Shown: piece after piece, positions 13,954-58,334 of the stretch | Layout of the letters: every line of letters begins with the position of its first letter | Numbering within the stretch: the stretch's first letter is position 1 | Assembly: GCA_022457155.1 (NCBI GenBank) | Contig: JAJGOT010000448.1 | Location: forward strand, 37,501-101,500 | Origin: Cladopsammia gracilis | Lineage: Eukaryota > Cnidaria > Anthozoa > Scleractinia > Dendrophylliidae | DNA length: 64,000 bases | Direction of reading: 5' to 3' | Notes under the pieces: generated by a model | What the model saw: the letters and a program-made list of their open reading frames with translations, nothing else | Database searches by the model: none | What the model was told of the DNA's origin: nothing | Program-made: the position numbers and the translations under genes

Positions 13954-13969
13954 ATATAATAACTGTATA

Positions 13970-14437: not shown

Positions 14438-14438
14438 A

Positions 14439-14793: not shown

Positions 14794-14794
14794 A

Positions 14795-14815: not shown

Positions 14816-14834
14816 TATTTTAAATAGTTTCACA

Positions 14835-15259: not shown

Positions 15260-15296
15260 TTATACTTATATATTAGATAATATTTAAATATTTTAA

Positions 15297-17216: not shown

Positions 17217-17231
17217 TTATATAATATAATT

Positions 17232-18100: not shown

Positions 18101-18112
18101 TTGCTGTATTTT

Positions 18113-18508
18113 TTAATCTGGTATTAAGAAACCACCAGATTGAATACCTTTTCCAAAAATTTTATCTATTCCCAAAGATCCGAGAGCAGATAAAGCCCCT
18201 GTAGCTAAAGCTGGTGCCGCTTTTGATGCTAATTTGGTGACCATTGGAAGCATTTTTGTTCCAAGTGAAATTAAACTAGACCATAAAGAACCGCCATATT
18301 TAACTGATTTTCTAATCTGTGTTTTTGAAATCTTAATATCTACACCAACTCCATTTTTTATCGCTTTTTGGATTTTATTTATCTGTGTTTTAGTTAAATT
18401 CAGTCCATCGCTTCCCATCAACTCATTTTTAGCTAATCGAATTGTTATTGGTGAATTTGTTTCATATGTTTTTGCTAATTTTTGTTTTTGTCCTTGAGAT
18501 AATTTCAC
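18113..18508 (-). CDS. PX-like virion protein (first unit)
   Basis: Frame open from 18508 (no in-frame ATG; a nearby ATG is out of frame). It contains LTKTQINKIQKAIKNG and then GGSLWSSLISLGTKMLPM, followed by an Ala/Leu-rich amphipathic helix. It parallels the layout of the next unit, so the two look like tandem copies of one domain. Ends GGFLIPD then TAA. Confidence 0.6.
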   Translation of the reverse strand: MKLSQGQKQKLAKTYETNSPITIRLAKNELMGSDGLNLTKTQINKIQKAIKNGVGVDIKISKTQIRKSVKYGGSLWSSLISLGTKMLPMVTKLASKAAPALATGALSALGSLGIDKIFGKGIQSGGFLIPD

Positions 18509-18621
18509 ACCATATTCATAATAAGTTGTAATATTTTGTATATAATATATGTTATATTATTTTGATAATTACAAAACATGTTTAATTAAAAAACTATAAA
18601 TATTGTAACAACATAATTCAT

Positions 18622-19939
18622 TTATGCTTTAATAAGTAGTTTACCACTGCTTGTGTATAATTCGATCTCTTTTTCATGAAGAACTAGAGCGTTTAAAGTA
18701 TAGTTAGTTGCATTTGCTCCATTAAGTTCATATCGGAAAGTCAACGATACAATAGAATCTTTTGTGTCTTCCTCTTGATTTCTTAGGTCGAAATAAATAA
18801 TTCCAAACAAATTTCTGAAATTACTTCTATCAATTAATGCCCCACTAAGAAAGTCATTGTAAGCAGAACTGTAGCTCATAAGTGTTCTGTATAATCTACT
18901 CTCTTCATTAGCTGACAATTCAAGTTGAGGATAATATATGCTATTATTCATTTCAAGCTGAGCTTTACTGAAAACTCTGTTATTTGCACCTATACTGAAT
19001 GTCTTGAATGTAAATATATTAGCTTCTTGATTATTATATGAAGCTGTTGGATTCACCCATAGAAAAACATGTCTTGGTCTTCTTATACTGTCTTGTACTA
19101 ATTCTGAACAATGAACTCACAGCCGCAGTTTGATTTATTTCAAAATGCTCTCTCAAGTATATCCAAGTTTTTGGTTTCAGATAGTTTTCCAGATATTGAC
19201 GCATACCACTACCATTGAAAATTAGTTTAGGGCACCATAATCTGAATTTAGTAATCAAAACTTTTGAATCAGGAGCAGCATTGCTACGAAATATAATATT
19301 GTTATCATTTTCCAATCGGATTAAAATGCTTATTTTTATATTTGGATGAAGATTCTTTTTGAATGCAGCAAAATACGAATATATCTTCAATGGGATAGAT
19401 ATTTTGTTCTCACTGCCTGCGTCTGTAAGAATTTTTCGCATCGCGAATCCTTGGTTGTACAATGCTTGAGCTGTTCTTGGCTCAGCTGTTCCAGTCGAAG
19501 TATCTAAATAAAAGAAATTGTCTTTAGCAACTGTATTGGCATATTCTTTAGTGTATTTTAAGTGATAGAACATTCGATGTTTCATTGCCTTTTGTGTTGT
19601 TATATACACTTATACCATCACATTCAACTTGTATTTCTTTGATGAAGGTGTTACCGTTTGTTGTTGTACAAAATAAATTTACATTTCCCACTCCAGCGCC
19701 GATACCAGCTCCATCTTGATCTTGATTTAATTTGTTCGAAGAAGCTTGAAATTGACTTCAATATATGCATTATACCAGTCTATTGGGTTAGCCTCTGAGC
19801 TATTATCTATTACAAACATGTAATTATCTTTTGTTTGTCGATTATTTGCCCCAATATTAGCATTCAAAGGTGTTTGTAAATCATAATATGCATATTCATA
19901 TCTTTTAACAAATTCTGGACTTCGAAAATTTCCGTTCAT
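18622..19939 (-). pseudogene. Major capsid protein (double jelly-roll type), frameshifted
   Basis: Begins with an intact 70-codon frame (ATG at 19939), shifts near 19735, again near 19558, and a third time near 19095, then runs to the stop at 18622. Recognisable blocks: YDLQTPLNANIG, AMRKILTDAG, LVLHEKEIELYTSSGKLLI at the end, and VFLWVNPTASYNNQEANIF, which resembles the Polinton hexon-type capsid region. The total of about 440 codons fits Polinton major capsid proteins. The family forms the pseudo-hexameric capsomers. Assignment rests on position, length and motif style. Confidence 0.7.
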
Positions 19940-19969
19940 ATATATATTATTAGTTTAGATAAAAAATCA

Positions 19970-20341
19970 TTATAATAGTAAATAATTATAAACAACTTTA
20001 ATATATTGATATTTGTCAGTATCTTGAGCCTGTTGCTCATTTTCTTTTTGTAAAAGTTTGATTATTTCATCACCTTTTGTTTCATTCGTTATTTTTGGCT
20101 TGTTTGTTTTATCACTAAATTTATTGAAAATTTTGTCTCCAATAAGCTGACCTGTTTTTTCACCTATTTTTTCCGACCCCTTTTCTATCAACTTTTCAGC
20201 ACCCTTTTTAGCAAGTTGTTTAGCTGTTTTGCTTGCAAGTTTTGAAGCTATCTTACTTCCAACATTTTTGAAAACATCAAGTATTCCTTCACCTTGAATA
20301 ATGTAATCTCCAGTATCTGGATCTCTTTCTCTTCGTTCCAT
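19970..20341 (-). CDS. Amphipathic basic virion protein (pVI/PX-like)
   Basis: Intact, 123 codons, ATG at 20341. Starts MERRERDPDTGDYIIQGEG, then a long amphipathic Lys/Ala-rich region (FKNVGSKIASKLASKTAKQ ... KGAEKLIEKGSEKIGEK) that should form helices and could interact with membrane or DNA. Sits between major and minor capsid genes, the place of a capsid cement or lytic protein. Precise family uncertain. Confidence 0.55.
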   Translation of the reverse strand: MERRERDPDTGDYIIQGEGILDVFKNVGSKIASKLASKTAKQLAKKGAEKLIEKGSEKIGEKTGQLIGDKIFNKFSDKTNKPKITNETKGDEIIKLLQKENEQQAQDTDKYQYIKVVYNYLLL

Positions 20342-20363
20342 CTATATAGTGAGTGTATATAAA

Positions 20364-21125
20364 TTAAGCTTCTTTTATCACAACGGTTATAGATATATCA
20401 ATTTCATTTAAGTCAACCTCCCTGTTTTCGTCGTCTGTGATATAAAAAGTAACTTCAGATAGTACTTTTGTATTTATTTTATTCCAAAGATAATTTATTG
20501 GTTGTATTTCAAATGGTAGAGATCTTGTTTTTGTATTCGTTGAGAAGGTAAAAAGCACGTCTGATAACCGCCCTGAAATGATTGAATTACTTAGTAGAGA
20601 AGTTCTTATGTATAAGTTATCAATACTGTTGCTGATATTAGGAAATTGGGGTCCATAAGAACTCACTTCCAATATCCCTGTTTTATCGAAACCCAGTAAA
20701 TCTGCAAAGTTTCCGCTATTCTTGAAATCAATCCAATAGTTTTCATCCAACTTTATGAAAACCTTATAAGTTGTAAGGTTAAATAATATATCAATTCCAT
20801 AAGTCTCCTTTTGCATGAGTTTTCCAATTTCATTGTGAATATATTGATTTATATCATCATAGTCATAAATACCTGATGGGAATGTTATTGTTTGCCAAGA
20901 AGTGCCTTTGTTTTTTGAGATCTATAATTGGTTGTTATAATATTCTGGTCGTATGTTATGCCAACTTGCAGTCATACTGAGATGATCTAATGCCATGTAG
21001 TATTGTTTGTTGTCATCTAAAATTAATTCAAGAATGAACTTTGTAGTGAAATTACCTGGTTTATTATTTTGGTTTTGTTTTTTAGCATCTATTGATTTGA
21101 AAACTAAAACTCTATTTATATCCAT
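20364..21125 (-). pseudogene. Minor capsid protein (penton, single jelly-roll type), frameshifted
   Basis: ATG at 21125 opens a 66-codon frame ending LSMTASWHNIRPEYYNN. After a shift near 20925, a second frame runs from about 20916 and continues through the 150-codon segment to 20364. That segment has SGNFADLLGFDKTGI (the conserved L-L-G-F of Polinton pentons), DNLYIRTSLLSNSIISGR and a final ITDDENREVDLNEIDISI strand. The family forms the vertices of the capsid. Confidence 0.75.
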
Positions 21126-21129
21126 TATA

Positions 21130-22235
21130 TTATATGCTTATATATTTATTGTATAATTTCTCATGCATTGTTCTGTCAATAGCCCCTATTTTCAATAATT
21201 CATCATTGATTTGTGATAAGTCATTTCGCAACACTGGACTATTGTTTCCAGCTGCCATTGAACCAATTATTATTTTCATGCGATCAGCCAATTGTTTTGA
21301 ATCTTGATAATACATAACACTTGATCCAATCATTCTGGACTTACCAGATGATTTGTGTGGCCCAATATTACTAAGCATATTAAGATCGTTAAAAATCTTT
21401 ACAGCATTCAGACTGTAGTTTGTTTTGGGATTATATCTTTTAGTTAGCATATTTATGAGTGATTTATCAGCATCAGCTTCATAAACCAATTTACCACCAT
21501 GATATGCATTCAGCTTCATTTCATTCATCAATTTTGAGACATCAATAAGAAGGCCACCATATTGATTACCATTTATTTTGAAAGCATTTCTTTTTGGCTG
21601 TTTATATATTCGAATACCCTCACCTTTTTGTCTATACTCAAACGACTTTAATACGTCTGAGATCGTATCCCTATATTTTCGAAGAACGCCTATTTCATTA
21701 GTATATTCCGTCTTAACTTCTTTACTCTTGCCCCTTTTATTTCTACCCAATTCATTTGCTAATTCCGCAGATTTTTCCTTTTCTTCCAATAATTTTTGGG
21801 GAGTCAATGATAATAATTGTGAGGGCATTGCCAAATTGTTTTTGTTTAAAACAATTTTATCATCTTTATTAAATCGGTTATCAATATTAAAATATGTCGG
21901 ATCTTTTCTTGATTTTTGTTCTGGTTGGTAATCTATTTGGGGCAGCCCATGTTGTAATGTTATTATGTCTTTATTCGATTCAATTATATCCTGAAATCCC
22001 TTTGTTAAAGCTAATTGATTTCCCCGTAGTTGTTCAATTAGTTGATCCTGTTTCTCATCTGTTTTTTCTGTTTTTCAATCAATGGCTCTCGTAATGTCTT
22101 AAAATAATCACTCATTACAATATCACGCCCTCCTTCCTTATTTTTTATCTCATTTTTTGATTCAGTAACTGCTTTGACAATTTTATAGCTCTCATATTCT
22201 GAATCAGCATATTTTTTAATTCTGTCAATATTCAT
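21130..22235 (-). pseudogene. Polinton structural/coiled-coil hypothetical protein, frameshifted
   Basis: ATG at 22235 (MNIDRIKKYADSEYES), frame lesion near 22065, then open to 21130. Charged, Glu/Lys/Gln-rich N-half with coiled-coil character, followed by a more globular half with GNQYGGLLIDVSKLMNE and NIGPHKSSGKSRMI. About 365 residues overall. Family not recognised; placed just before the divergent ATPase gene, separated from it by a short AT-rich bidirectional promoter region (22236-22366). Confidence 0.55.
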
Positions 22236-22366
22236 TATATAAAATATGTTACATAATTTATCTGTCGAAATGACACTTATCTTTAAAAATATGTGTAAAA
22301 ACAACACTTATATTTATAAATATGTGTGAAAACAACACTTATATTTATTATCTAACATATTTGTAT

Positions 22367-22987
22367 ATGAAAATTCCGAATTACGATACAAATAGAAATG
22401 GTGAATCAAAAAAAAGATTAAACAATTTTTTAGATGAAGATTTTAGAATGATTATTACAGGACAAAGTCGATGTGGAAAGACAAATGCTCTTATGCATAT
22501 GTTAAGAACACCACTGATGTATTATGATAAGATATATTTATACACACCAAATCATCATCAGGAAAAAATACAAGATCTACAAACATTGATGAATAAAATA
22601 TCTGATAAGGTTAGTTATCCTGTATTAGAAATTGGATCATCTGATGATATTAAAGACACTTCAGAATATCCCAACAACAACCGTAAAATTGTCATTTTTG
22701 ATGTTCTAATTAATGCACCTGATAAAATACAAAATAAAATTGCCAACAACTTCACAGATGGACGCCATCATAAGATAAGCCCAATTTATTTAAGCCAGAG
22801 TTACTATGATATTCCGCAGAAACTTAAATTAAACTGCAGTCATATGATGTTGTACCCACCTACTACCAAAAACCATTTGAATCTCATTGCCAAAGAAAAC
22901 TTAATAGACCCTGGTTTGTTCAATAAATTAGGACCCTATGAATTTCTGTTTGTGGACAAAGAAAATAAGTGTGAAAAAGAATTTTGA
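22367..22987 (+). CDS. Genome-packaging ATPase (FtsK/HerA-type, Polinton)
   Basis: Intact frame; ATG 22367 (MKIPNYDTNRNGES) is preferred over 22322 because family members begin close to the P-loop. Walker A is GQSRCGKT (residues 32-39). The Walker B strand is KIVIFDVLIN with D112, but the following residue is Val where homologues normally carry a second acidic residue. A later YLSQSYYDIP segment is the sensor-type motif. 206 residues. It drives DNA into the capsid. First of the plus-strand block. Confidence 0.85.
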   Translation: MKIPNYDTNRNGESKKRLNNFLDEDFRMIITGQSRCGKTNALMHMLRTPLMYYDKIYLYTPNHHQEKIQDLQTLMNKISDKVSYPVLEIGSSDDIKDTSEYPNNNRKIVIFDVLINAPDKIQNKIANNFTDGRHHKISPIYLSQSYYDIPQKLKLNCSHMMLYPPTTKNHLNLIAKENLIDPGLFNKLGPYEFLFVDKENKCEKEF

Positions 22988-23019
22988 TGAAGTAATCTAA
23001 TGTAATATCATAATATAAA

Positions 23020-24910
23020 TGGGTATATTTAATAACCTTGAGAAATTCACAAATATTGACATTTCTGAATATATTAGAATCAAAAGAATCAATTAGAAGC
23101 CAAAACCAAAAAATTCAAGCAAGTAGTGGACTCAAGTTGGATCCAAACAATAACTATGATATGCAGAATAAAAAACTTGTCAATCTAAAGGAAGGGGGTA
23201 ATGACAGAGATGCAATTACCAAGCATCAATTAGATGTTGGATTACTAACTAAACCAGGTAAATATGAAGTATTATTGTTGAATGGCGAAAATCACATGAC
23301 AGGAGATCTTGATTTAAGAGGAAATAAATTAATTCTTCCTGGAGAAATTGATATGAACAGAAAACTTATTACAAATATGGATACGGATGAAGATAACGAT
23401 CTTTCTGCCGTCAATATGATCACTTTAAAAAAAGTATCATCCTGATGCTCCAGCTCACACTCATGAAGTGACTAAAGATATTGATTTGAAGGAGATGTAC
23501 AATATTGTCCAATCAAAACAACAAACATGGCATGATTTGGGAGCACATTATAATAATCTAGTTTCTTACAATGATGTCAAAAATATATTCTTATCCCGTA
23601 AAGAGGTGTTTCCAATGGAGAATTCAATTGATATGAACAACCACACCATTTTTAATGTGGAAGATCCAACCGTTGCCGATCAAGGCACAAACAAAAGATA
23701 TGTGGACGACCAATCCGCTAAAAAACTTTCTTTGGCAGGTGGAACAATGACTGGAAACCTGGATATGAATTCACAACAAATCAATAATATTGCAGCGCCA
23801 ACTCTTGAACATCAACCCACGCCAAAATCTTATGTGGATAGAGAACTTAATCTCAAGATAGGAAATGTGGTAGTCCACACGATAGAATTAGAAGATAAGC
23901 TCAAAAAATATGTAAATGAATCACATATCACGTCAACCTCGCACTTGAAAGATGAATTCCGGTATCTGATGGAAAATGTGGATGAATCCAGCTCTGAACA
24001 TAATATGACAGTGACTGGAATAACTGATTTTTCAAGTTGTCCACATCATTTCAATAAGAAGGCATATGATTTAAAAATAACAAAAGATCCTTTTAATGAA
24101 TACTCTGGGAGACTTGGATTCAATGTGTACAAATTACCAGAAGGAGAATACACTATTTGCATTGAATTCTTCCCCGCGTCAATGGATGGTGTTAGTGTTA
24201 ATGTCGTGAGCACAAGTCTGAATATCAATCAACAATCAACAAAGAAGTTTTCGAATCCAATTGGTGGCTCCGCCGGTTATACAAGATCCATCATCCACAT
24301 GCATAAATGGCAGATTTCTCCACCTGAATTCATTTTCCTGGATTTGAACTGGAATGGAACCGCTGAATCAGCTGCAAAAGGAGATGCAAATTTGATCATA
24401 TATGGTGTCAAAGGTTCTCAACCTGATGTTGAAAGCAGTGTTTATGATGCACCTTTCATTTTTGAAAATGGAAAAATGGTTATGGAGACCGATATTAATA
24501 TGAATAATCATGATATTCTTAATTCTTCTGTAATCACACAACTTCAAACTAAAATAAGTCAACTTGAAACCAGGATTTTAAGTCCAAAACTTAAAACTTT
24601 CCAAATATTCGATTGGGTAGGTTCTAAAGCAAGAACAGGTTATAAATTTGTAATAAATCTTCCATTTAATTTTAAAATAACAAAAGCTATTTCTATTTTC
24701 ACTTCAAGTAATCCCACTCCCTTTCTAAGATTAAATAATTCATTTTATTCAGCGTCCGATTTAATTATAGTAGAAACCAATAAAAACGCACGTCATATTG
24801 ACATTTATGGATTATATACAATAAATATCATGTTTTTGGATCAAAGTTCTGCTTTGGGTCATCCAGTCAAATTTGATATTCATCTTACAGTTTTAGTTGA
24901 AGAAATATAA
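23020..24910 (+). pseudogene. Fibre protein with phage-tail-type repeats, frameshifted
   Basis: ATG at 23020; frame changes near 23045 and at an eight-A run near 23430, then an intact 480-codon frame to 24910. At least four units of the tail-fibre type are visible: DMQNKKLVNLKEGGNDRDA, HMTGDLDLRGNKLI, GGTMTGNLDMNSQQINNIA followed by YVD, and DMNNHTIFNVEDP followed by KRYVDD. These correspond to G-x-M-x-G-x-L-D-M ... I-x-N-L ... YVD repeats, known in phage tail fibres that form trimeric beta-structure stalks. The C-terminal ~250 residues are a distinct beta-rich domain that could bind a host surface. Host attachment is inference. Confidence 0.75.
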
Positions 24911-25034
24911 GAAACTTTATTTGCACCTTATAATTGCCATATCAGTGCACTTTTTGAAGAGTTTTAATCACATAGGAAAAACATACACCATATTTTTATA
25001 TAAAAGCTACATTTAATATAATCAATAAATATAC

Positions 25035-25436
25035 ATGCTGAATTTGGAGCAAGCAATTAATTTTTGTAATAAATTTTTCACAACCCAAAAAAACCTACAT
25101 CCTGATACTAAAGATGAAATATTAAAATCGGCTTTAATATATCAATTTTTGTATGTAAACTATTTGAATGAGCCAATATCATTTAACCAAATATTAGAAA
25201 AACACTCTGACATTGGATTAATAGCACCAGGTTCTTGTACTCTAAATACCAATTATCAATTTTTAATCAAACATGCTATTTTTCATGATGCATTTGGAAG
25301 ATTTTATAATGACTATGAAAAAGGGCCTGGATACACATATTGCTGCCTTTCATTGCCGAAGAAAATAAAAAGATCTCCAATAATGGGCCAAATAAGTGGT
25401 GTATTATATTGTCTTATTTCAAATCCTAAAATATAA
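25035..25436 (+). CDS. Polinton hypothetical protein (133 aa)
   Basis: Intact frame from ATG 25035 after an AT-rich leader. Helical N-half (LEQAINFCNKFFTTQKN), later IAPGSCTLNTNYQ and a Tyr/Cys-rich GPGYTYCCLSLPKK. No family recognised. Lies downstream of the fibre gene on the same strand. Confidence 0.5.
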   Translation: MLNLEQAINFCNKFFTTQKNLHPDTKDEILKSALIYQFLYVNYLNEPISFNQILEKHSDIGLIAPGSCTLNTNYQFLIKHAIFHDAFGRFYNDYEKGPGYTYCCLSLPKKIKRSPIMGQISGVLYCLISNPKI

Positions 25437-34853: not shown

Positions 34854-34863
34854 CGTATCTATA
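34854..34863. repeat. Left target duplication of the 6-kb transposon
   Basis: CGTATCTAT(A), identical to 40857-40866. Copy B has the uninterrupted site at 52884-52900 (ACATATCTATAGTTTC). Confidence 0.85.
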
Positions 34864-34947
34864 ACAGGGGGCTTTTTTGCATTAGCATGCGCAAACACCG
34901 CTGTCACGCGGGCTCACCACAGGGCCCCCATAGAACATTTCACAGCA

Positions 34948-37900
34948 ATGGCGGGTTCTTTAAACTTGTTAGTTATTCTCTCTGTTCTTTTAATATTCGT
35001 TTCTGAATGTAAAAGAGATTCGGTTAAGTGTTCAGTGTGCGAAAAAATCACTAACAGTAAAAGTTGCAGGCCAGTCGCTTCTTATGTTGCGGAATTGCCA
35101 CCTGAAAGTTGTAACCTACTTGACCTCGACGGTGCGCGGATTTGCGGTGCCTGTAGAATGGCCCTCAAAAGAAAATCTTCGTTTTCACAGGTAGGTATTA
35201 TGACGATTGGTTGGATTTAAACACAAAGTGCTACCATTAAAGCAAAAAATATATATTCAAAATTTTCATTTTAGCGAGTGGGAAAATACAGGCACCCTAA
35301 AATGGGAAGGCGCGCAAAGGACAAAGCACCAGTAGGAACCACGACGACCCAGCTCGCTAGAAAATCGGCAGCTACCCAAACGACAGCAGAAAACACCGCG
35401 ATATCACTTGACTCGTGGACGGTAGAAGAGACGTGCTTCGGCGACATTTTAAGGGGACCTTGTGGTCGAGTGCTTTTCCCGCCTGGGCTTTATGAGGAAG
35501 TACAGGAGGAAATGCTCCAGCTTTCCAAACGTAGGATATAAAATAATTTATCTAAGGCAAACGGAAAACCAACAAAAACGGCTCTTTCTTGGTGTTGCAA
35601 GGTGCATTAATGCATTTCAACCTAGAGTTCTTTGTTTTCAATAGTATTGTTTTACTGCATTTTCTTTGTTATTGTCTATTGTTTGATTGTCTTCGTGCTC
35701 TTGGTGCCTTGCAACACCAAGAAAGAGCCACAAAAACGTTTTTAGTACTTTTCATTGATCAGCCAAACAGACATATGGTTCAAGGCTCAATTTTATTTTC
35801 AATGTTTCATAAAACGACCCACATACAACAACAAACGTATAATAAAGGTGTAAGAAAGGAGGCAGACAGGAAGACAGACAGACAAAGTGGGGAAGTGAGA
35901 TAGATCTACAGAAAGAGGCAGGCAGGCAAAGAAAGACCTATACAAAGAGTGGGAAGACAAATAGACAGAATATATTTTGGTAATCCAATTAATTCTGTTG
36001 TTCTTTTCTTTCAGGGTGTGACATTTCAAAGGAGTTACAATGTATAAAAAATACTCTCTTCCAAGAATTCACTAGTTCAGGAAAATCACCAATATATGAT
36101 CCAGAGGAATTTCAAAAGGTGTGCACTAAGGCAGGAGCCAAAACAATCTTTAGTACTATTCTTTCGGCGATGACAAGTGAAAGGCATTCTGAACAACGAG
36201 TGGAATCCAACAAAAAAAGAACAGTTGCTATAATTTACAAGCTATGCTATGGTTTGAGCCAAGTATGCAACTGGATGCAAACGGACCATAACATATTTCT
36301 CAAACAGTCAAACATAAATAATGAGGGATTGCAAACAGAGCATCTCATGGGAGCCTCCTGTAGCAAAAGTAAATCAAAATTAATGATGAATGAGATGGCA
36401 AAAACAGCATCTAGAAAAATCAATGAAATAGTGACAGAGGCCATTGCACAGAGGTGGCAGTTGGTGCTAGTCATCGATGACTACACTACAATTCACTCCA
36501 TCAGACGACCACTTACAGAACAACTGAGCAATGCTAAATCTATGTGTACAATTCTTATCAAAGCTTTCAAAAACATCAATGCAGTACCTTCCTCTCCAGT
36601 AAGCAGCTATCATGACCCCAAAGGTATTGATATAGAATCATCTGTACAAACTGTTTCTGGTTTGAATTCTATGTACAAATTGACCTACACCTACTCCTCT
36701 GTCATGCCTGCTTGGATCACTGCCACATTCTCAAATCCAGAAATGGAGAGACACCGCGTAACAGCACATGTATATAGCAATGATGACTCAGTCAGTTCCA
36801 TGAGAAAAATGGATGATGTCCATTTGGTTGACTTTGTCCAGTTAACACTGAAAAGCAGGGACGACTTTTCTGCTGCATTTGACATACTACTCGGTACCAA
36901 GCTCTCAGACTATTTTCAAGAATTCCTTACTCCCCAGCCTGGTGATTGGCCGGCACAATTTTATAGCCGTCAAATTGTGTATGAGACTTTGTCCAAATTC
37001 AGTAATCCAGCTCATGCAAATGGTTCTTCCATACTTCCACAGCCTCCTCATGATCATTGCTATGCCACAGCCTCAACCTCCATCCCTGAAACACAAAGTA
37101 TAGTAAATCAGCCAAAAATACTTTCAATAATTCCCTGTATTGGCCCCTTACATGTGTCATTAAATGGCAGAGAAACTGTTTTTAATGATTACCGATTATT
37201 TTTTGAAAACATCTACAAGCAACTGTTTCCAAAAAGTAAGCTGGCCAAAAGCCCAAAGCCATGGCGGATAAGTCTTCTGCAAGAGGTTGTTTATGGAGGA
37301 TGGCTTTTTATCAGAGACAGCATCAAAGACAAGTTTTCTTACTGTAAGGACACTGAATACAGGACACTGTTAAATTTACTAGACAATTATTTGCCCCTTG
37401 TCCTCACTATCTACTCTGTGACTTTTAAAATGAATAACTTTCCAGAATACTTTAACGCTATAATACGGATCTGGACTATGTTTGTTTGCCTTGAACGGCA
37501 CCACTATGATAAAGCTCCGCTGGTCTGGCTGGCTATGTGCACCTATTGGGGAAAGCACCATCCTAAGTTATACAACCTTCTGAGGTCATGTCTGGTTATA
37601 TTTGACGAGTATCCCGTTGAAAATGCGCATAGCATAATAAGAGCTAAAACCAACCCTCATGATACAGCTGAGCAAATAATCAAGAAAGCCAAGTCAACCT
37701 TTCAATCAAAACACTCTCAGCAGAACTTCAAAGAACATTTTGCACCTGCAAATAAACAACACTTCAAACTAAACCACCTGACAAGTCTGAAAGCTAAATG
37801 TGCTACTATTCTGGCTGATATTTTTACACAGATTTCAAAGAATCCAGGAATGGCAAAGATATGGAATGAAGGTAAAAAGAAAAAACTACTGTTGCCAAGA

Positions 37901-39196
37901 GTTTTTGGTAATGAAGCTGTTAAATCAAAAGTTCTTCCATTGGGATACTGTGGAAATACTATGCCTAAAGAAGACAGGAGATGTGATCTACAAGGATGTA
38001 ACATATGTGGGGATCAGCCATGGCACATTTTTGAGGGCTGTTCGCATTCATTTCATGAGGTTTGTCTAGATGATCACCAATTTTGTCCCCTTTGTCACAC
38101 ATTCTTAGAAGAAAGAGCAAGGTCTCTGTCACAAACAGCTCAAGATGCCATCTTGAATCCTAAAGAAAAAGAGACTCCCATTTCATCTACTAATACTGAT
38201 ATAAGCAATGATGATCAAGTCTTAGATGCCTTGGATGACTTAGATGCCTTAACAGCAAACAGAAGTAGCTTAGATGTGGAGAGTCAGTTGCAGTCCATCA
38301 ATGTGAAACTATCGGCACTGCCACTACCCCCTCCACCACCCTTACCTCAGCACCAACCACTAGCCCCTCCAGCACTAGTAACGCAACAGTCTACCACATG
38401 TAGCACAAGAAAGCAGCCCATGTGTAAAAAATGTCATCACACAAGAAAGGGTCATTCATACCCGAAGAATGCACCTATTAGATGTCCCAGATGTTCAGGG
38501 GGGATTTGTACAAGCAACAACAATACTATGTCACCACCAAGTGTATCCCCACCAGCATCAAGTGTACCTCTGCCAGCATCAAGTGTACCCCCACCACCAA
38601 CAAGTGTACCCCCACCACCAACAAGTGTACCCCCACCACCAACTAGTGTACCTGCACCACAACAGCAATTCTATCTCCAGACAACTAATCATTTTGGATA
38701 TGTCAATGAATTTTTATTGCCTCAACAACTTTCACAATGTTCAATATTTGGTATACAGCTAGGCAGCAATGCCTGCACAATAATTGCAGCCTTTGGTGGT
38801 ATGAAGTTTTTAGATGGAACTCTTCCATTCCCAACACCAGTAAATCTCCTACGGTCTATTGCTTCATTTGCTAACTCAATGAAAGAGGGAAATTTGCTTT
38901 ACAATACATTGAACATGCCACTGAGTCAACCAAACTTAAATGTCCAGGAAGCACTTCAAACAAGAACTGACAATTATAACCTTAAAATAGTTGAGGACAT
39001 AGGGATCTTTTGTAAAGCATCTCTCACAGACAAGCTGAATGAAATTTGCTCCATTGCTGAGGATTGTTGTACAATCCTTATTGCTCCACCAGACAAGTCA
39101 ATGCTTCTTTGCTGTAGTAAAACTGAACAGTCAATCGCACTGTTTGAAAGTCATCCTCATGGACAACATGGAGGGATAGTAGCACTTGCCAAATAA
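34948..39196 (+). CDS. Large transposon protein, putative transposase (3 exons, 1226 aa)
   Basis: Exons 34948-35190, 35275-35530 and 36015-39196, all with GT-AG borders and matching phases (0, 1), give one uninterrupted frame. Exon 1 codes a Cys-rich segment (CSVCEKITNSKSC ... ICGAC), preceded by an odd hydrophobic start. Exon 3 holds a putative RNase-H-like core: VIDDYTTIHSIRRP (~324), PCIGPLHVSLN (~542) and DEYPVENAHSIIR (~700). The order D ... GPLH ... E with N-A-H recalls DUF6589-type proteins, but the match is by eye. Then come a RING-like finger (CNICGDQPWH ... CSHSFHEVC ... CPLC, ~825-862), a Pro-rich stretch with S-V-P-P-P-P-T repeats, a zinc ribbon (CKKCHHTRKGHS ... CPRC, ~970-1000), and a C-terminal domain with GSNACTIIA and LFESHPHGQHGG that could be a Cys-His protease fold. 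No frame damage. Start codon is tentative. Confidence 0.75.
35577..35735. mobile_element. MITE in intron 2 of the transposon gene
   Basis: GGCTCTTTCTTGGTGTTGCAAGG and its inverse flank a ~110-bp centre. Similar ends (GTTTCTTGGTGTTGCGGA) occur at 57205 and 57310. Confidence 0.75.
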
Positions 39197-40856
39197 GAGC
39201 ACCTTGACAAATTTGTGTCGTATCTATCACTTATGTGTGTGCGTGACTGGGGACATGATATTGATGGTGCTAACTTATTTGTAATGGGAGCTAAGGAGTA
39301 ATTTTGCTTATGTTACTGAGTTACATAGTGTGTAGGACTTCTTAAATAGCTATACAACTATTTAAAAAAGGTTGTTTTACTTAAGTCTATGCCCCTAGAC
39401 CACAAAGGAGCATGGGAGGTATGAAATAACTGGTTCTTTGGCAAATGTCTGGCATTCTACAACATGAAAAATGGTCAGAGCCCAAAACAATAATAAAAAT
39501 TAATATGTAATGCAATGTCTACTCAAAATTTTATTTCTAAAGTGTTTTTTTTATTTTCAGCACGCTAAAGGTGCATGGCATGTATACTTGACTATAGCTG
39601 CAACAACCTTTTCTGAAATAGGTGTATAAGCTTGCCAAAGTGACAAGAGGGTCTGAAACTATTTTCAGCTAAGAAAGTGGTGGTTATTGTTTATGTTACA
39701 ATTACAGTAAAAATAATATAATGCACATCCAAAAAAACTATATTATCATGATATTATGAGTTTTGCTTTTGAGGCCATCTCAAATTTAGTTCATTTGTCA
39801 TACAAACTGACAACAATCCCAAATGAAGCTATTTCAGGGGCAATTCCCAAGCAGAGACTTCAAGTATAGCAAAACTTATGTTAAGGAACAGTTTAATGAG
39901 TTAGTTTATACTCAAAACATCTAAAAAATCTCCAACTTCCCCCATTTTCCAAGCCAATGTAGCACCATGTATTAAAAGCAAATTGAATGTAGTTTAGTTT
40001 CCAATATATATTGCTCTGGCACAACGAGCGGTTTTCGAATAATAAACAACTAATTAATATTCAATAAACAATAATTTTTTGTAGATTTGTTAATTTGAGT
40101 TGAGGCTTCATTTTGCTACCGATTGCAAAGAAAAAAGTGATTACAAGATAACAAGAGTTCTAGAAACGGTGTATGATTTATTTGAAGTTATGGCATTCGC
40201 CACGAGGGAAGTTGAACTACACAAACAACAAGACGAGAACCAACGTGTTTCACTATAAAGCTGAAAACACAAACTTCCCCCATTTTGTGATTGATCTCTG
40301 CTAGATAAACGGATTTCAAAATGATAGTTGTTGCCATTTTTATTTAAAACTCTGTGGCACAACGACTGGACTTCGAAATCATGGTCTGCCAAGACGGCGA
40401 GAAATTGGCATTTTGCATTAGAGCAGGGAAGTTCACCGAAAGATTTCGCATGTACTCCTTGGCGCGATTTCTTAAATAGGGACTTAAATAAAACAAACTT
40501 ACCTTTACGGATACGTTGACAGTTCATATATCAATTCTGGGTAGAAAGTTCATGTGGCAATGTCCATTGAAGACCACAAATCCGCCATTAATCCATAAGT
40601 CCTTGCATAGAGTTGTCTCTTCGAATTGTTGAACAGCATTACAATCTCAAGCTCAAAGGGCCAGTATTTTCATCCCCAACTTACTAATATGATTTGTACT
40701 TTTACTATGTGTTGATTTAAAGTTTTTCCCGCAAACGAAAATGAAGGAATTAGCCCCGAATTTAGCCACGGTACTTGACAACAAGATATCACTTCGGAGC
40801 CAAAGCAAGCAAGCCGCGTACTTTTGTGCGCATGCGTCACAAGAAAGCCCCCTGTT
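39197..40856. other. Non-coding right part of the 6-kb transposon
   Basis: AATAAA-like signal near 39490; no supported gene. The 128-codon minus frame 40141-40527 has no family resemblance and I do not count it. Confidence 0.45.
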
Positions 40857-40866
40857 CGTATCTATA
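40857..40866. repeat. Right target duplication of the 6-kb transposon
   Basis: CGTATCTATA; see 34854-34863. Confidence 0.85.
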
Positions 40867-40950: not shown

Positions 40951-43900
40951 ATGTGGTTCTATTATATGTTGCTCGCCATTGGGGCTGCCCAAGCAGGTAA
41001 AAATGACATTTTTTAACGTGTAAATTTTCTGTTTGATCTTGTTTTGTTTCTCATGTTCTATCTCATGTTCTTGTCCATTACCTCTACTTAAGGTGGCTCG
41101 ACTGGGTTTCTGAGCGACGATACCGTTTAGCTTTGAGAAACTTGTGTACCACCACAAACGATCCAACGGAAAATCGATTGCCACAGCTGTACTAGAGAAA
41201 GATTAAAGTTTCAGATGAGGTTAGTTTTATGGAAATCGCAGTTGCCAAAGCAACGTTGTGACATCACTTCCTGTTTTACATAATACCGAATTACTTGTCA
41301 TCAAGAGATAATTTTGGAAAACGCTCGCTGGATCTTCGACCTGACGTACTTGTCCGTAGGTCTACAAAATTTTACAAATTTCTATGGAAGCGTTTTCGAA
41401 AAAAATTTCGAGTGAAGTTTTAAGGTGTTAAAATACAACAAAAACAAAACAATTTTGAAATGTTATTAAAACTTATGTCTACAGGGCTTGATGAAATAAT
41501 GTTTTGGTCTTACATGAATTTTATACCATCCAAATACCTTAGGTAAAAATATCAAGGAAATCGCTGCGTTTGGATTTCAGAAATATTACCTTGAATATGA
41601 ACTGGCCTGGAGTGTTATTTCGCTTTTACATCAAAAGTTGACCCTGCACTTATTAAAATTGCATGAATTAAAAAGCGAATGATGAATGTTTTTAAAACTT
41701 AGTCCTCATGAAGATTGATTAATGTTTAATACAATCTCCAAGTTTCAAATTCATTGAAACATTCTAAGGCTGTCAATTTTTAGCGCCAACTCAGGAAAAT
41801 ATTGAGCTGATTTTCGCGCTTGTGGCTTGTTGTTTCATTATGCATCTCCATTGTATCAAATCGCCGTGGAATTGTAGCTTTCAGTACATCATGAATTCAT
41901 GTAACACTTAAAACAAAGCAATGAAGTGTTTATGAATTCATTATGTACTGAAATTTACAATTGCATGGCGATTCGAGACAATGGAGATGCATAATGAGAT
42001 CAACAAATCACTTTCATATTCATGAAAATCAGCTCAATATTTTCCTACGTTGAGGCTGTAAATTGACAGCCTTAGAACGTTTCAATGAATTTGAAACTTG
42101 GCAGTTGTATTGAATATTAATTAATCTTTATGAGGACTAAGTTTTAAAAAAAATCATAATTCGCTTTTTAATTCATGACAATTTTAATAAGTGTAGGGTC
42201 AAGTTTTGATGTAAAAGCGAAATAATACTCCAGGCCAGTTCATATTCAAGGTAATATTTCTGAAATCCAAACAGAGCGATTTCCTTGATATTTTCATCTA
42301 AGGTATTTGTATGGTATAAAATTCATGTCAGACCAAAACATTATTTCATCAAGCCTTGTAGACATAAGTTTTAATAACATTTCAAAATTGTTTTGTTTTT
42401 GTTGTATTTTAACACCTTAAAACTTCACTCGAAATTTTCTCGAAAACGCTTCCATAGAAATTTGTAAAATTTTGTAGACCTAAGGGCAAGTACGTCAGGT
42501 CGAAGATCCAGCGAGCGCTTTCCAAAATTATCTCTTGATGACAAGTAATTCAGTATTATGTAAAACAGGAAGTGACGTCATAACGTTGCTTTGGCAACTC
42601 CGATTTCCATAAAACTAATCTCATCTGAAACTTTAATCTTTCTCTAGTACAGCTGTGGCAATCGATTTTCCGTTGGCTCGTTTGTGGTGGTACACAAGTT
42701 TCTCAAAGCTAGACGGTATCGTCGCTCAGAAACCCAGTCGAGCCACCTTAACCCTATTCAGACTGGGCTTTTTTTGGCAATCTGTGACTGGGGGAGGGGG
42801 GGAGGCTCCTCGGACCCCCCCCCCTGTATATTTCTGGAACCAGTAAGGCTAGGACCATGAAATTTTCACACAATGTTCACCTCCATACAAGGAAACCTCA
42901 CACCCAGTTTTGGCCTGCCACACCCAATTATGACGTCATAATGACGTCATTTTGTGCTTTCCGACGTTTCTTTGATATTTTTCCATCCAGATACTTAAAA
43001 TATCAAATATAACTGTAAAATCATATCTTTAGTATTAAAACATAATAAATACAAACAAGGACACACTTGTAAAGCGAGAAAAAGCAATAAAAAGCGATAA
43101 AACTATAATTTTGAAATTATTGTCCGCCATCTTGGATCCGCCATCTTGGATCCGCCATCTTGGATTTTCTTTTTTCTTTGTTTAAATTAAAATTTAAAAA
43201 ATATCTAAAAGAGAAAAGGATCAGAATGTATAAAACACGTATCAAACTAATGCCTATTATCCAAACAATGAACTTAGAAGCGTTATTTAATAAATAGTAC
43301 AAAATGTTTGTCTTTAAGTAAAAGAGAGCAAAAATTTACCTACCCCTCCCCCAAATATTTGATGTTAAAAATTTTTTATGTCTTTCAAGAACTAGTCCCA
43401 AGATAAAACTATTCTAGCAAGAAAATGCACTATAAGTCAAAGAACAAGATCTTAAAATAAAAAATTCACCACATTTTAATATTTTGAAAACCTATGTGTC
43501 AATAATCGGTTGCCATGGCAACATGGCTAATCACACTGACATGTTGTGCATACCAAAATGTCCCTAGATAAATACTAGGAAAAGTCAAAAAATTTTCAGC
43601 CTCATAGCTATTTCGGTGTAAGAGTTATCACAATTTTACTGGAGGGGGGTTCGAAAAGCCCCCCCCCCCCCCCCCCCCTCCCCAGTCTGAATAGGGTTAA
43701 ATTAATGTTTCCTCACTTTTTTTAATTAAAACTTGAAACTACGAAGAACATCTGGAAATAAATTAAATCAATCCCCGTATGACTAGCCAGCCCCAGAGCT
43801 TCAGGCGGAGAAGCAAAGAAAATCTGTGACGTCTGCGGGAAGGCTAGTGTATAACAGGTTGAATGTAAGAACCACCTTGAACAGCTTCTGAAACAACCTT

Positions 43901-46850
43901 TCTTTAGGTTTTATTTGCATAATCAAACGGTAGAACTACCATGCACAGAATACGAGCGGCACAGCAAAAATGTACCTTTTTAATAGCTTTCATTTGAATG
44001 TTTCGTATTAGGATTTCATCCGCAGACTCGAAATTTAGAACTACTTTGTACAGCATAACATACAGCTCCACAAGAAAGAACTGCTCAATAAAGCTTTCAT
44101 TTGTACCGTTACACTTTCGGGGATGTGATCCACGGACAATAGATCCATTTTGAACTGCATAGTAAACATCACGGCAGAAACGCCGACTACATTTCCAGCT
44201 CGTTTAGGTGTGGAATCTACCTTTAGCAGTACGGCGCGTTTCCATAACCTGAAGGAGACTTCGCTACCTTCCGTGGGAAAAAAAAGTTATTAGTGGCTTA
44301 AAATTTCCGAGTAAAAACAGATGTCATGTTTAACTAGCTAATGTGGGTCTGTAAACAAACACCTAGGAAGAATGTACAGCTAGTTAATCGGCCTCTTGAA
44401 AACACAGCCCTTATCAATTAAATTTTTATTTAAATCGTGTATTTTTGAGGTAGCAACTGATCCAGTTACAAGAAGAGACACACTCCTGGCCAAAAAGCAT
44501 GGTTCATGCAATTCACATAGAATATAGACCACTTACGAATTACCTCGTTTTGAGAACCAGGATTGGTGCAAAATATTTTATTCACCTAAAAATATAATTG
44601 ATTCCCATATGAATGGTCTTTTACAAGGCAACACTCAGATTAAAGCTGAGCAAATTCTAAAATGTCCTATTGCGTCCTTTTTTCAGCGTTTACTGAAGAA
44701 GAGAAGACTGGTTTGGCCGAACATAACAAATTCCGCAAAGTACACCAAGCTCCACCGATGACACTAGATAGGCAGATGTGTGACGACGCTAAGGCGTATG
44801 CAGAGAAACTCGCCAAAATGGGAACATTGGTGCACTCGCCTAAGACCGACAGGAATGGACAAGGAGAAAATCTCTCCATGGGATGTTCCACTAACGCAGC
44901 ACAGAGTATGGAACAAGCTGTGACAAACTGGTAAGAAGAGTTTATAAAGTTCAATTGAATGTAGATCATACTTGAGTGATCAATTGAATGTAGATCTGGA
45001 TCATACCTGAGTGATCTAAGCTTTCCTGCAGTTATTGTTTACTAACCTTCAAACGTACAAGCAAAGCCGTCATCAAGTTGAGTATCCTCGGGCTACAGCC
45101 GGATTTCAATTGCGAGTGGAATATAATTTTGAAACTGCTTTGGTTTTGCATTGCTATACGCTTTGTGATTGGCTTAAATCTCACGCCACTTTCCCAAACA
45201 ATTTGAAGTAAAACCAAAACCAATCGTGACTCAACGGGTTCCCCAGCGCAAGCTTGGCGCCTGCTTCATGTATTTGACTAGTGTTCTGATTGGTTCATTG
45301 GAATGACCAGCATGCTTCTGTTGTGATTGACCAGAATAATTACTTTGGTTTTGGTTTTACGTTACTAAACTGAAAACCGCAATATAGCACGCTAAACTTT
45401 ACGGTCCTCCATTCGAGTCTTGATCTCTGCAGCCACGGTTTTATGAACGGTCCCGTGATCCACCGGAGCAGATCTGTTTATGTAAGGGCCTGTCACCGTC
45501 GTGAGGTTTCTCCCTGGGTCGGTTCCCAGAGCAAGACGTCACTTGCAACTAGCTCAGGGTGTCAAATGCAGTGTCCAGCAGCCAGTCGGAGTCTGCTTCT
45601 CCTGATGTTGACGGAGGGTCTAGGCAGATCGCTATAGACGACATTGTGTCTAACCCTATCCTACCATGAAACATTGAGGACCATCCTGAGCATGCGGGTG
45701 TAGCAGCCGTCAAACCGAGCCTCTTGCTCCACTGTGAGCGTCCATCGTCCATGACTCTGCAGTGAGCCGTAGAGTAGAATGGGCTCTACCGAAGCCCTGA
45801 ATTTAGATCTTTTGAGGCATCAACATGAAGCAAGTGGAAATCCCCCATCCCTTGAAGCTTCCCTGCTCTGCAATACTTTGGAAGATTTTTTAACCGGAAA
45901 GTACAGAAGTTGCATCTTTTACTGATGATTTAATCAAACGACTCGATGCCTTTTGAAAACCTTTTTAAAATTTGCAATAAAAACGGTTGAATGTAGGTTT
46001 TCAAAACCTGTCTTTTTTATGCGATTCTCGCCAAACGTTTACTAAAATGTGTCTGCAGGGGATGGGTAGATGGCTACTAAAATTTACAGGTCCCAACAAA
46101 AAATCCCCTGAAAAAAAAGAAAAGAAGAAAACCTTGCGGTGGAATTATCTCTCTTCGCCCGAATTCGCTTATAAGAGATTTTAGTGAAGAAATTGTCATG
46201 GCTGCAGTTTGGCGTCCGTGAATTAAAACAGGTCCGTTAACGGGATTTGCTGCTTGCGCTGCAGTATGGCAACGTTGGCCGGCATAGCCAATATAGGTAC
46301 TTAAAACTGATGTATAATTGTTCTTAAAACCGCACGAACGTATTTTGAACGAGCTTTTAGCTCATTAGATGTTACGTGGATAAATAAATGATTGATTGAT
46401 TCTTCCTCTGAAATATATATTCATATTTTAAAATAACATTATTTTAGGTACAATGAGGTATGCAAACCTGGCTATGACTTCAGTGCAGGAGGATTTTCAG
46501 GCGGAACAGGTCATTTCACGCAAGTCGTGTGGAAAGGTAGCAACGTGCTTGGTATTGGAAGAGCTGAATCGACCAAAGGAAGCATGAAGTGTGCGTACAT
46601 TGTTGGCAGATATAAACCGGCAGGAAACATGATCGGCTCATTTTCAGAGAACGTGAAAAAGGGAAGCTTTGACCCAAATTATTGCAATCCAATTCAAAAG
46701 AAGGAAAGATTACTCGATGTAAATGGCAAAGTTATGAACATCGAATCTTTATTTACACAAGTCGATGTCCCGGATATTCCTGGCAAAGACGCAAGCGCTG
46801 ACAAAGACACAAAAAGACACAAAAACTTCGTCAGTTCTAAGCACCATTGA
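40951..46850 (+). CDS. CAP-domain secreted protein, copy A (3 exons, 230 aa)
   Basis: Exon 1 (40951-40996) is the signal peptide MWFYYMLLAIGAAQA. Exon 2 (44687-44930) codes the CAP first half with LAEHNKFRK (His28), CDDAKAYAEKLA and GQGENLSMG. Exon 3 (46448-46850) holds GHFTQVVWKGS (His119), LGIGRAES, CAYIVGRYKPAGN and a basic tail (KKERL ... SSKHH). Phases 1 and 2 match at every join and donors/acceptors are canonical. CAP proteins act extracellularly; in cnidarians they occur in secretions and some venoms, but this copy could equally be mucus or immune related. AATAAA follows at about 46906. The introns carry two large palindromes and a LINE remnant. Intact. Confidence 0.9.
41088..42751. 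mobile_element. 1.66-kb TTAA-flanked palindrome in intron 1
   Basis: TTAAGGTGGCTCGACTGGG ... CCCAGTCGAGCCACCTTAA; a long inverted repeat centred near 41920. Copy B has the empty site (GTATTTAAATGAATG at 53091). Same TTAAGGTGG termini as 33316. Confidence 0.9.
42748..43700. mobile_element. Second TTAA-flanked element abutting the first
   Basis: TTAACCCTATTCAGACTGGG ... CCCAGTCTGAATAGGGTTAA. It shares the middle TTAA with the preceding palindrome. Contains C/G-rich tracts, and CCGCCATCTTGGAT three times in tandem at 43122-43163. Confidence 0.9.
45420..45790 (-). pseudogene. Non-LTR retrotransposon (LINE) reverse-transcriptase C-terminal remnant, copy A intron 2
   Basis: Minus strand in broken frames reads YTRMLRMVLN, then RLRLAGHC-like and LVASDVLLWEPTQG, the usual C-terminal block of RTE/CR1-type reverse transcriptases. 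Contains several stops. The same remnant is in copy B, so it predates the duplication. Confidence 0.7.
46325..46402. repeat. LINE 3' tail-like sequence in copy A only
   Basis: Ends GGATAAATAAATGATTGATTG, a typical CR1/L2-like tail; the matching position of copy B lacks it. Confidence 0.45.
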
Positions 46851-52834: not shown

Positions 52835-52968
52835 CGTGTTTGCCTCTTAAGCAACACTTGTATAGTATATACACATATTTACATATCTATAGTTTCTTGG
52901 CCTCTTAAGCACTGTGAACGTCGTGCTCTTTTCTTTCCATTAGAAGTGTATCACAGCTGAGAAAAAAC

Positions 52969-55900: not shown

Positions 55901-58334
55901 CATGTGATTCAACGAGTTTCCCTGCCCTTGGCGCCGGCTTCGTGTATTTACCTCGAGTACTGATTGGTTCAATTCATTGAAATGACTAGCATGCTTCTGT
56001 TGTGATTGCTAATTGGTTTTGCGTTCCTAAAATGAAAACCGAACTAATAACACGCTAAACTCTACGGTCCTCCATGCAAGTCTTGATCTCTGCAGCCACG
56101 AATTTAAGAACGATCCCGTGTTCCGCCGGAGCAGATCTATTTATGTAAGGGACTGTCACCGTCGTGAAGTTTCTCCCTGGGTCGGTTACCAGAGCAAGAA
56201 GTCACTTGCAACTAGTTCAAGGTGTCAAATGCAGTGTCGTCCAGCAGCCAGTCGGAGTCTCCTTCTTTTGATGTTAACGGAGAGTCTAAGCAGATCGCCA
56301 TAGACAACATTGTGTCTGACCCTATCCCTCCATAAAACATTAAGGACCATCCTGAGCATGCGAATGTAGCAGCCGTCAAACCGAGCCTCTTGCTGCTCTA
56401 CTGTGAGCGTCCATCGTTCATGCCTCTGAGCCGTAGAGTGGAATGAAGCCCTGAATTTAGCTCTTTTGAGGCGTCAACATGATCCAAGTGGGAATCCGCC
56501 ATCCCTTGGAACTTCCCTGTTCTGCAATACTTTGGAAGACTTTTTAACCGAAAAGTGCAGAAGTTGCATGTTTTGCATCTCTGATGATTTGATCAAACGA
56601 CTCGATGCCCTGTGTAAGCCTTTTTAAAACTTGCACTAAAAAGGTTGAATGTAGATTTTCAAAACGTGTCTTATTTTATGCGATTCTCACCAGACGTTTA
56701 CTCAAATGTGTCTGGGGTGGGTAGACGGCTACTAACATTTCCAGGTCCCAACAAAAAGTCCCCTGAAAATAAAATAAAAAAAAAAAGAAGAACACCTTTG
56801 GGGTGGAATCGTCTCTCTCAAGAAAATGAAGGCATGGGCCGCCAGTTATTTCTCCCAAAAAGTGAGGGGGTGGTCTATCTTCTGAGGATTAAGCTATTTA
56901 CAAACGTAAAACTTTGACAGATTAATATGTTTGACAAAGTTGTCATATTGACATCCATGACGTATGCAAATTAAGTCACGTGACCAGACAGGGCTATTTT
57001 AGTTCAAAATTCTTTTAAGCAAAATGGCATCAGTTTTGCTTATTCCCCGGAAGCTGCCTTTGGGATTATAATGCTTTGCCTATTAGGTACATAAAAGCCT
57101 GAAAAATTAAATTAATGTCGTTCAGTTTCAAAATTAATAAAATATTTCAAAAAGTCCGGGCAGAGATCCTTTGTTGCTTACTTTTGGAACCATTTAAGAG
57201 GGTGTTTCTTGGTGTTGCGGAAGCCATTGTTGGTTAGCTTTTGTGTTGTGGTGTGGGTATGGTTCAGTGTCTTTTGAAACTTTTGTTTTAAGTCATTTGG
57301 TGATCACACCATCCGCAACACCAAGAAACTACCATTTAAGAGAAGTAAAAATAGATGACTATTGGTATAAACTGGTGCCATTTTTGCTTAAAGACTTCTA
57401 AAGTCACGTGACCTAATTTGCATAAGATTTACATGTCAAAATGACAATAATCGCAATGATTAGCCCTGCAAAGTTTTACGCTGTTGCAAATAAAGCCTCA
57501 GAAAATAGACCACCCCCTCACTTTTTGGGCGAAATCGGCTGGCAAGCCATGCCTTAATTTACTTGAGCTCTCCGACGATGAAGAGATGAAGAGATGAAGA
57601 GATGAAGGGTTTTAGTGAAGAAATTGTCATGGCTGCAGTTTGGCGTCCGTTTATTAAAACAGGTTCGTAACGGGATTTGACTGCTTGCGCTGCAGTATGG
57701 CAACGTTGGCCGACATAGCTACACAAAACTGATAATGTAATTGTTCTTAAGACTTTTGTTTATTTCTCTAAAATATATGTTGTGGTTCAATTTTATCCTT
57801 GGTTCAAATTTTATTTTCCTTTGTTTAAAACTCATTATCATACATTACCATAGCCAAAAACAAAGGAAAATAAAATTTGAACCAAGGATAAAATTGAACC
57901 ACAACATACATATACTCTTATGTTTTAGGTACAATGAGGTTTGCAATCCTGGTTATGACTTCAGTGCAGGAGGATTTTCAGGCGGAACAGGTCATTTCAC
58001 GCAAGTCGTGTGGAAAGGAAGCAACGTGCTTGGTATTGGAAGAGCTGAATCGACCAAAGGAAGCATGAAGTGTGCGTACATTGTTGGCAGGTATAAACCG
58101 GCAGGAAACATGATGGGCTCATTTCCAGAGAACGTGAAAAAGGGAAGCTTTGACAAAAATTATTGTAATTCAATTCAGAAGAAGGAAAGATTACGCGACG
58201 TAAATGGCAAAAATATGAACATCGAAACTCTATTTACACAAGTCGATGTCCCGGATATTCCTGGCAAAGACACAAGTGACCGTATTGTACTCCTGAAGAA
58301 AAAGAAAAGCTTCGTCGGTTCTAAGCACCATTGA
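52969..58334 (+). CDS. CAP-domain secreted protein, copy B (3 exons, 231 aa)
   Basis: Exons 52969-53014 (signal peptide MWFYYVLLAFGTAQA), 55404-55647 and 57929-58334, in the same phases as copy A. CAP motifs as in copy A: EHNKFRKVH, GQGENLSMG, GHFTQVVWKGS, YIVGRYKPAGN, with a Lys-rich tail (LLKKKKSF ... SKHH). About 93% identical in exon 2 by eye. AATAAA at about 58386. A MITE sits 20 bp before exon 3, replacing the branch-point region. An alternative last exon at 54261 could be joined to exon 1. Intact. Confidence 0.9.
54261..54520 (+). CDS. Candidate alternative last exon: secreted Gly/Thr/Pro-rich peptide
   Basis: Preceded by a strong acceptor (CGCTTTTCTTTTTAG). Phase-compatible with exon 1 of copy B (one base carried over), giving a 101-residue product: signal peptide, then KSNIKISGTGTIANG, a strand-like INININVQIDG, and a tail with two TTVPTQ units in Gly/Ala/Thr/Pro-rich surroundings, ending GAAGGWL and TAA. 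AATAAA follows at about 54597. It has no ATG of its own. Copy A lacks the whole segment. The Thr/Pro-rich tail could be O-glycosylated. Role unknown; existence of the spliced form is inference. Confidence 0.6.
54597..54602 (+). terminator. Polyadenylation signal after the alternative exon
   Basis: AATAAA about 77 bases after the TAA, followed by a T-rich stretch, as expected for a terminal exon. Confidence 0.55.
56080..56440 (-). pseudogene. LINE reverse-transcriptase C-terminal remnant, copy B intron 2
   Basis: Same fragment as 45420-45790, about 90% identical, with its own indels. Confidence 0.7.
56826..57560. mobile_element. Inverted-repeat element in intron 2 of copy B, with nested MITE
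   Basis: Outer arms AAGGCATGGGCCGCCAG ... CCCAAAAAGTGAGGGGGTGG and the inverse ending GCCATGCCTT; inner pair GTTTCTTGGTGTTGCGGA / TCCGCAACACCAAGAAAC at 57205-57330. Absent from copy A. Confidence 0.8.
57776..57908. mobile_element. MITE next to the exon 3 acceptor of copy B
   Basis: TATGTTGTGGTTCAATTTTA ... and its inverse ...GAACCACAACATA; ~50-bp arms. It ends 20 bp before exon 3. Confidence 0.85.

Follow-up and report, generated by a model that had tools for sequence, protein, structure and literature searches.

A multicopy DNA transposon of Cladopsammia gracilis with a predicted DDE core, a RING-H2 finger, and a deubiquitinase-like domain

The window, i.e., the 64,000-nucleotide stretch of the Cladopsammia gracilis contig analyzed here, contains at positions 34863 to 40856 a real mobile element with an unusual set of domains. 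It is assigned to the cut-and-paste DDE transposons because it combines inverted ends and a target duplication of fixed length with a protein whose core is predicted to fold like RNase H and has three conserved acidic residues. We hold with considerable confidence that it is a DNA transposon of this kind that also carries a RING-H2 finger and a deubiquitinase-like domain. Its relatives in cnidarians and arbuscular-mycorrhizal fungi make up a family that is a candidate new superfamily, close to hAT and P elements in the fold of the core.

Ends of the element and its target site

The outermost 10 bp of the element, AACAGGGGGC, form exact inverted repeats (34863 to 34872 on the forward strand and 40847 to 40856 on the reverse strand), and there is no third exact copy of this sequence in the window. 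The terminal inverted repeats extend over 17 bp on the left (AACAGGGGGCTTTTTTG; 34863 to 34879, forward strand) and on the right (40840 to 40856, reverse strand), with 16 of the 17 bp (94%) complementary. Directly outside both ends lies the 9-bp target site duplication CGTATCTAT, found in the same form at 34854 to 34862 and 40857 to 40865. The left flank of the element resembles a paralogous segment at 87%; this segment contains a single CATATCTAT (52882 to 52890), 1 base off the duplication and located within the aligned flanks, which is therefore considered the empty site. All three features had been part of the original prediction, and each holds.

Several other features of the window are worth recording. 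Just to the right of the element is a large palindrome (41088 to 42751), which over 1.68 kb matches its reverse complement at 92%. The region from 10204 to 25433 contains open reading frames on both strands that by eye resemble those of Polinton/Maverick-type elements or adintoviruses, including DNA polymerase-, integrase-, packaging ATPase-, and cysteine protease-like frames. Two similar exons that by eye look CAP-like (SCP) are found at 46437 to 46847 and 57741 to 58331, each inside a duplicated segment; these segments share 91% identity over 560 bp. An open frame at 2 to 544 looks, again by eye, like the C terminus of a hAT transposase.

Copies in the genome

The assembly searched comprises 878 Mb, and all genome-wide numbers of places given below are lower bounds that may include haplotype duplicates. 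The decamer AACAGGGGGC, which had been proposed as a tag for further copies, is enriched in the assembly but poorly specific, with at least 640 occurrences versus at least 373 for the reversed control pattern. Eight loci cut out around it (L002 to L009) showed no paired ends with an 8- to 10-bp duplication within their 3 kb; accordingly, by themselves these ten bases mark copies poorly. The first 25 bases of the left end recur in 9 other locus entries that represent 8 distinct places, and the 300-bp right end matches at least 40 places, 31 of them over its entire length at ≥98%. A protein search of the assembly, in which 43 of the 2160 first-look candidates were scored, gave at least 58 matches. 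Near-full-length exon 3 is found at about 100% in four places (the window, on contig C1107, and contigs C669, C1214, and C1069); the further places from this search are split, deleted, or interrupted. Since long coding parts at 85% or higher identity are kept in only about ten places, as against the 40 or more right ends, most copies appear to be internal deletion derivatives.

Five copies (L011 to L015) are 99.4 to 99.7% identical to the window element at the DNA level over the stretches compared. Every one of the six copies in which both ends were read, the window copy included, is flanked by a perfect 9-bp duplication, and all six duplications (CGTATCTAT, ATGTACTGC, GTACCACCT, CTGACCAAT, TATATAACG, and CCCTAGCTC) are different. 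This count covers copies with both ends inside the stretches compared, which leaves out those on C1129, C679, C977, C135, and C84. Also left out are the AACAGGG motifs beside L024 and L031, where the likeness extends beyond the motif, those inside L018 to L020, which are internal, and the unpaired sites in L023, L035, and L037. The near-identical copies, each with its own duplication, bear out the view of a recent, real, multicopy mobile element. The same observation rules out a domesticated host gene, the six independent insertion sites rule out chance repeats, and the differences between the flanking 9-mers rule out allelic duplicates.

A sister family with ends AACAAGGGGC and a protein that is 64 to 66% identical is present in the same assembly (G000), on contigs C99, C115, C381, and C1066. 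At two of these four loci, its AACAAGGGGCTTTTTTGC ends are bordered by an intact 9-bp duplication; of the other two, one has a duplication beside a right end that lacks the tip and the other has none.

At one locus (L038, G000:C653, positions 3140 to 3474), a distance of 4167 bp separates two deleted copies. Between the left end of one copy and the right end of another, which point toward each other, lies a spacer of 274 bp with GTGAAAATA on both sides, as if produced by tandem insertions or by a duplicated segment.

Gene structure

The element was originally described as having a single undamaged gene of three exons and 1226 codons. The frame does exist but it is not undamaged, as an early TAA costs it 35 codons. 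Exon 1 (34948 to 35190; frame and splice search) encodes an N-terminal Cys-rich segment, zinc finger-like by eye, and its start codon is uncertain. Exon 2 (35275 to 35530; splice search) has an alternative donor/acceptor pair 4 bases on that gives the same length. Exon 3 (36015 to 39196; frame and splice search and copy comparison) encodes the transposase core, the RING-H2 finger, a linker, and a truncated C-terminal domain. All three are on the forward strand. The frame of the window copy stops at the TAA at 39194 to 39196, and at all 10 other loci compared (nine copies, C679 having been counted as both L017 and L026) it stops 35 codons later. These codons (39197 to 39301, forward strand) are still open in the window and are coding in other copies; in the relatives, the protein continues past this point to form the final helix and strand of a domain. 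In the window copy, a slightly truncated family member, the end of the deubiquitinase-like domain is lost. Among the near-identical copies are some whose exon 3 is free of stops.

The predicted N terminus (34948 to 35016) is hydrophobic and signal peptide-like, which is odd for a nuclear enzyme, and it is absent from the relative P0001; the true start codon may lie elsewhere. Intron 2 includes a 150-bp stretch (35580 to 35729) with 23-bp perfect inverted ends, possibly a small nested nonautonomous element.

Transposase core

Structure prediction gives the core an RNase H-like, DDE-like fold, and three acidic residues in it are conserved. The candidate catalytic residues, placed by the model and the alignment, are Asp321 in the first strand (IDD motif; 36476 to 36478), Asp477 in the PGDWP motif (36944 to 36946), and Glu702 in the motif DEYPVENxHS (37619 to 37621), all encoded on the forward strand. 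The respective residues are conserved in 62 of 62 (with 2 gaps), 61 of 63 (1 gap), and 62 of 63 (1 gap) lettered alignment rows. Another conserved motif, GPLH (residues 543 to 546; 37142 to 37153, forward strand), is found where the hAT, P, and MULE enzymes have their C/DxxH motif; its Gly is found in 62 of the 64 rows, with Asp in the other 2, and its His is kept in 63. Both further copies of the element and a DDE-like fold, on which the original prediction had made itself depend, were found.

In line with the earlier statement that the protein does not match hAT, Tc1, piggyBac, MULE, or Polinton enzymes, the core had no counterpart by sequence among known superfamilies in the libraries searched. 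The window protein matched no Pfam-A family at an E value of 10 (hAT, MULE, and PF20231 included), and scans of Pfam and NCBIfam with this protein and its relatives revealed no known transposase domain. A sequence search of the PDB gave nothing under an E value of 0.08, and a Foldseek search with the core against the PDB and viral models gave nothing at an E value of ≤0.001.

Ubiquitin-related and other C-terminal domains

The core is followed by a RING-H2 (C3H2C3) finger (residues 823 to 860; 37982 to 38095, forward strand), recognized by its ligand pattern and by profile matches to RING E3 ligases (best E value, 0.0023); at E values of ≤0.02, the PDB profile searches returned RING fingers and nothing else. 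Of the relatives from two protein searches, partial proteins included, 37 of 56 in one and 32 of 40 in the other show a RING-like spacing pattern. Further downstream on the same strand are a second Cys/His cluster (CxxC...CxxC; 38420 to 38512), noted by eye, and 21-bp tandem repeats (38532 to 38678), which code for a Pro-rich linker.

For the C-terminal domain of the relative P0001, structure prediction suggests the papain-like fold of the viral tegument-like deubiquitinases (VTD). In an alignment of 13 of the 25 motif-bearing relatives, the candidate catalytic Cys1087 (38774 to 38776, forward strand) corresponds to a Cys in all 13 domains. The counterpart of the D-x-H motif is Glu1211-Ser-His1213 (39146 to 39154, forward strand), in which Ser and His are invariant and the first residue is Asp in 8 domains and Glu in 5. 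The RING-H2 and deubiquitinase-like domains seem equipped to attach ubiquitin and to remove it, respectively.

Relatives in cnidarians and fungi

With residues 170 to 860 as the query, 57 proteins were found at an E value of ≤1 among 4312 candidates. The species-named matches come from Exaiptasia, Oculina, Dendronephthya, Desmophyllum, and Rhopilema, all of which we take to be cnidarians, plus one from Cetraspora. The Cetraspora protein in turn retrieved at least 40 proteins, itself included, when the 7992 candidates sharing the most words were scored; those with species names come from Diversispora, Rhizophagus, Gigaspora, Entrophospora, and Cetraspora, presumably all arbuscular-mycorrhizal fungi. 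Fungal and cnidarian profiles align with an HHalign probability of 100% (E value, 3e-128; 676 columns), and the AACAGGG tip, common to both, links the two groups at the DNA level. The named relatives are currently filed as uncharacterized, hypothetical, or RING-type proteins, and the 96 distinct proteins of the two lists carry no precomputed Pfam domains. No relatives were found in viral contigs or in phages.

A complete single-exon relative (L001) is located on a soil contig labeled as a Bacteroidetes metagenome-assembled genome (24% G+C). At the protein level, it shares 69% identity with one metagenome protein from the fungal search and 34% with a Rhizophagus protein, so this label is probably due to contamination. 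The element spans positions 120 to 4006 and has perfect 14-bp ends, AACAGGGCGGACAT; its flanks share 4 of 9 bases, with no intact duplication there. Repeated TGCCGATCATT-like units beside both ends (120 to 190 and 3935 to 4006) are possible transposase-binding sites.

Proposed mechanism and implications

From the observed ends, 9-bp duplications, recent copies, and conserved multidomain protein, end binding and catalysis can be inferred to proceed as follows. The transposase would bind the AACAGGG ends through its N-terminal Cys-rich segment and a helical domain and then pair them. The RNase H-like core, with Asp321, Asp477, and Glu702 and with a helical domain inserted ahead of the last of these, would cut the ends, which would be joined to target strands 9 bases apart, so that repair would leave the 9-bp duplication. 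These binding, cutting, and joining steps are well supported by the anatomy of the element. The two domains that follow the core, a RING-H2 finger and a tegument-like deubiquitinase, would act on host ubiquitin, e.g., by sparing the transposase or the transposition complex from degradation or by steering repair at the break; to judge by the predicted fold, they probably protect or regulate the complex.

On the tentative reading of the family as an uncatalogued superfamily (see below), a single transposase chain would combine a ubiquitin ligase-like module with a ubiquitin-removing one, a self-contained kit for handling its own or host ubiquitin signals in transposition. Direct experiments on the reason for deubiquitinases in mobile elements, a question that PMC9741609 raises for Helitrons and herpesviruses, would become possible with a fusion of a DDE transposase, a RING finger, and a tegument-like deubiquitinase; activity is testable because near-identical copies without the exon 3 stop exist. 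One more superfamily common to animals and fungi would also be of general use for genome annotation, as transposase superfamilies are few and the relatives are filed under the uninformative names listed above.

Comparison with known superfamilies

Repbase recognizes 23 superfamilies of eukaryotic DNA transposons, 21 of them with a DDD/E transposase, according to PMC10045372. In the literature search, no titles or abstract openings among the papers listed named as a new superfamily an element with a RING finger, 9-bp duplications, a link to Academ, or a tegument-like deubiquitinase. The reading that the family is an uncatalogued DDE superfamily, with AACAGGG ends, 9-bp duplications, a GPLH core, and a fused RING-H2 finger, and with a tegument-type deubiquitinase in its cnidarian branch, is a tentative one, with a chance somewhat short of even. 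We do not call the superfamily undescribed outright, chiefly because AcademH agrees with it in duplication length (9 or 10 bp in PMC10045372) and in host range (the title of the AcademH paper in its reference list mentions animals and fungi). The family could then be a divergent lineage of a described superfamily, Academ in particular, with a core that is an Academ transposase without the helicase, which we regard as unlikely. AcademH encodes a helicase, whereas the window protein matches no Pfam family at an E value of 10 and so shows neither a helicase nor an XPG nuclease, and neither is among 25 of the 45 Pfam families listed for 35 relatives. About equally improbable is a single remote clade with the DUF6589 (PF20231) proteins, which would themselves be transposases of the same kind. 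The vague resemblance to DUF6589 noted originally is weakly borne out by an HHalign comparison of 41 DUF6589 sequences with 64 sequences of the element family, where the score of 31.0 exceeded those of 59 column-shuffled controls (maximum, 28.4; mean, 19.0) and of the reversed control (19.0). The alignment is colinear up to the first Asp, both the fungal and the cnidarian subsets point to the same DUF6589 region before it, and the DUF6589 motifs seen by eye (GDQ...R...WH and a later Glu) come in a similar order. However, the HHalign probability is 2 to 3% (0.7% for the fungal subset) versus 100% for the subset-to-subset positive control, and the real score lies just 2.6 above that of the highest shuffled control. 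DUF6589 is abundant in the same assembly, yet none of its at least 103 places falls on a copy of the element; there is no Pfam-level match, and the precomputed Pfam domains of 119 DUF6589 relatives include no RING or deubiquitinase. This weak profile similarity is a hint of remote kinship. A literature search found no papers on DUF6589.

The distance from hAT had been overstated: no hAT Pfam domain was found, but the solved folds nearest to the core model are those of the P element and the hAT transposase Hermes. Even so, a highly diverged hAT or P element is quite unlikely. The target duplications of hAT and P elements are 8 bp long, in contrast to 9 bp in six of six copies here, and the window protein, which has the additional RING-H2 and deubiquitinase-like domains, shows no recognizable hAT or other Pfam domain at an E value of 10. 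One published account gives hAT duplications as usually 8 bp, with some of 5 to 7 bp. The C/DxxH motif, which according to PMC10045372 follows the second Asp and precedes the last Glu in hAT, P, MULE, Kolobok, and Dada enzymes, is replaced here by GxxH in 62 of 64 rows. The latter paper gives duplications of 4 to 10 bp for IS256/MuDR; the 9-bp duplication fits MULE (MuDR) elements, a weak point of likeness that is common to other superfamilies, and the window protein has no MULE Pfam domain at an E value of 10.

The preferred reading, a cut-and-paste DDE transposon with ubiquitin-related domains, finds its closest parallel for the C-terminal domain in the VTD family. In PMC9741609, VTD proteins are described from Helitrons and herpesviruses, most nonviral members are hosted by Helitrons, and cnidarian VTD genes are fused to transposon-associated domains. 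The predicted papain-like fold is common to both, and the candidate early Cys and later [D/E]-x-H motif may be as well. The known nonviral VTD proteins are mostly found in Helitrons, to go by that text, whereas the domain described here belongs to a DDE transposase, in which it comes after a RING finger.
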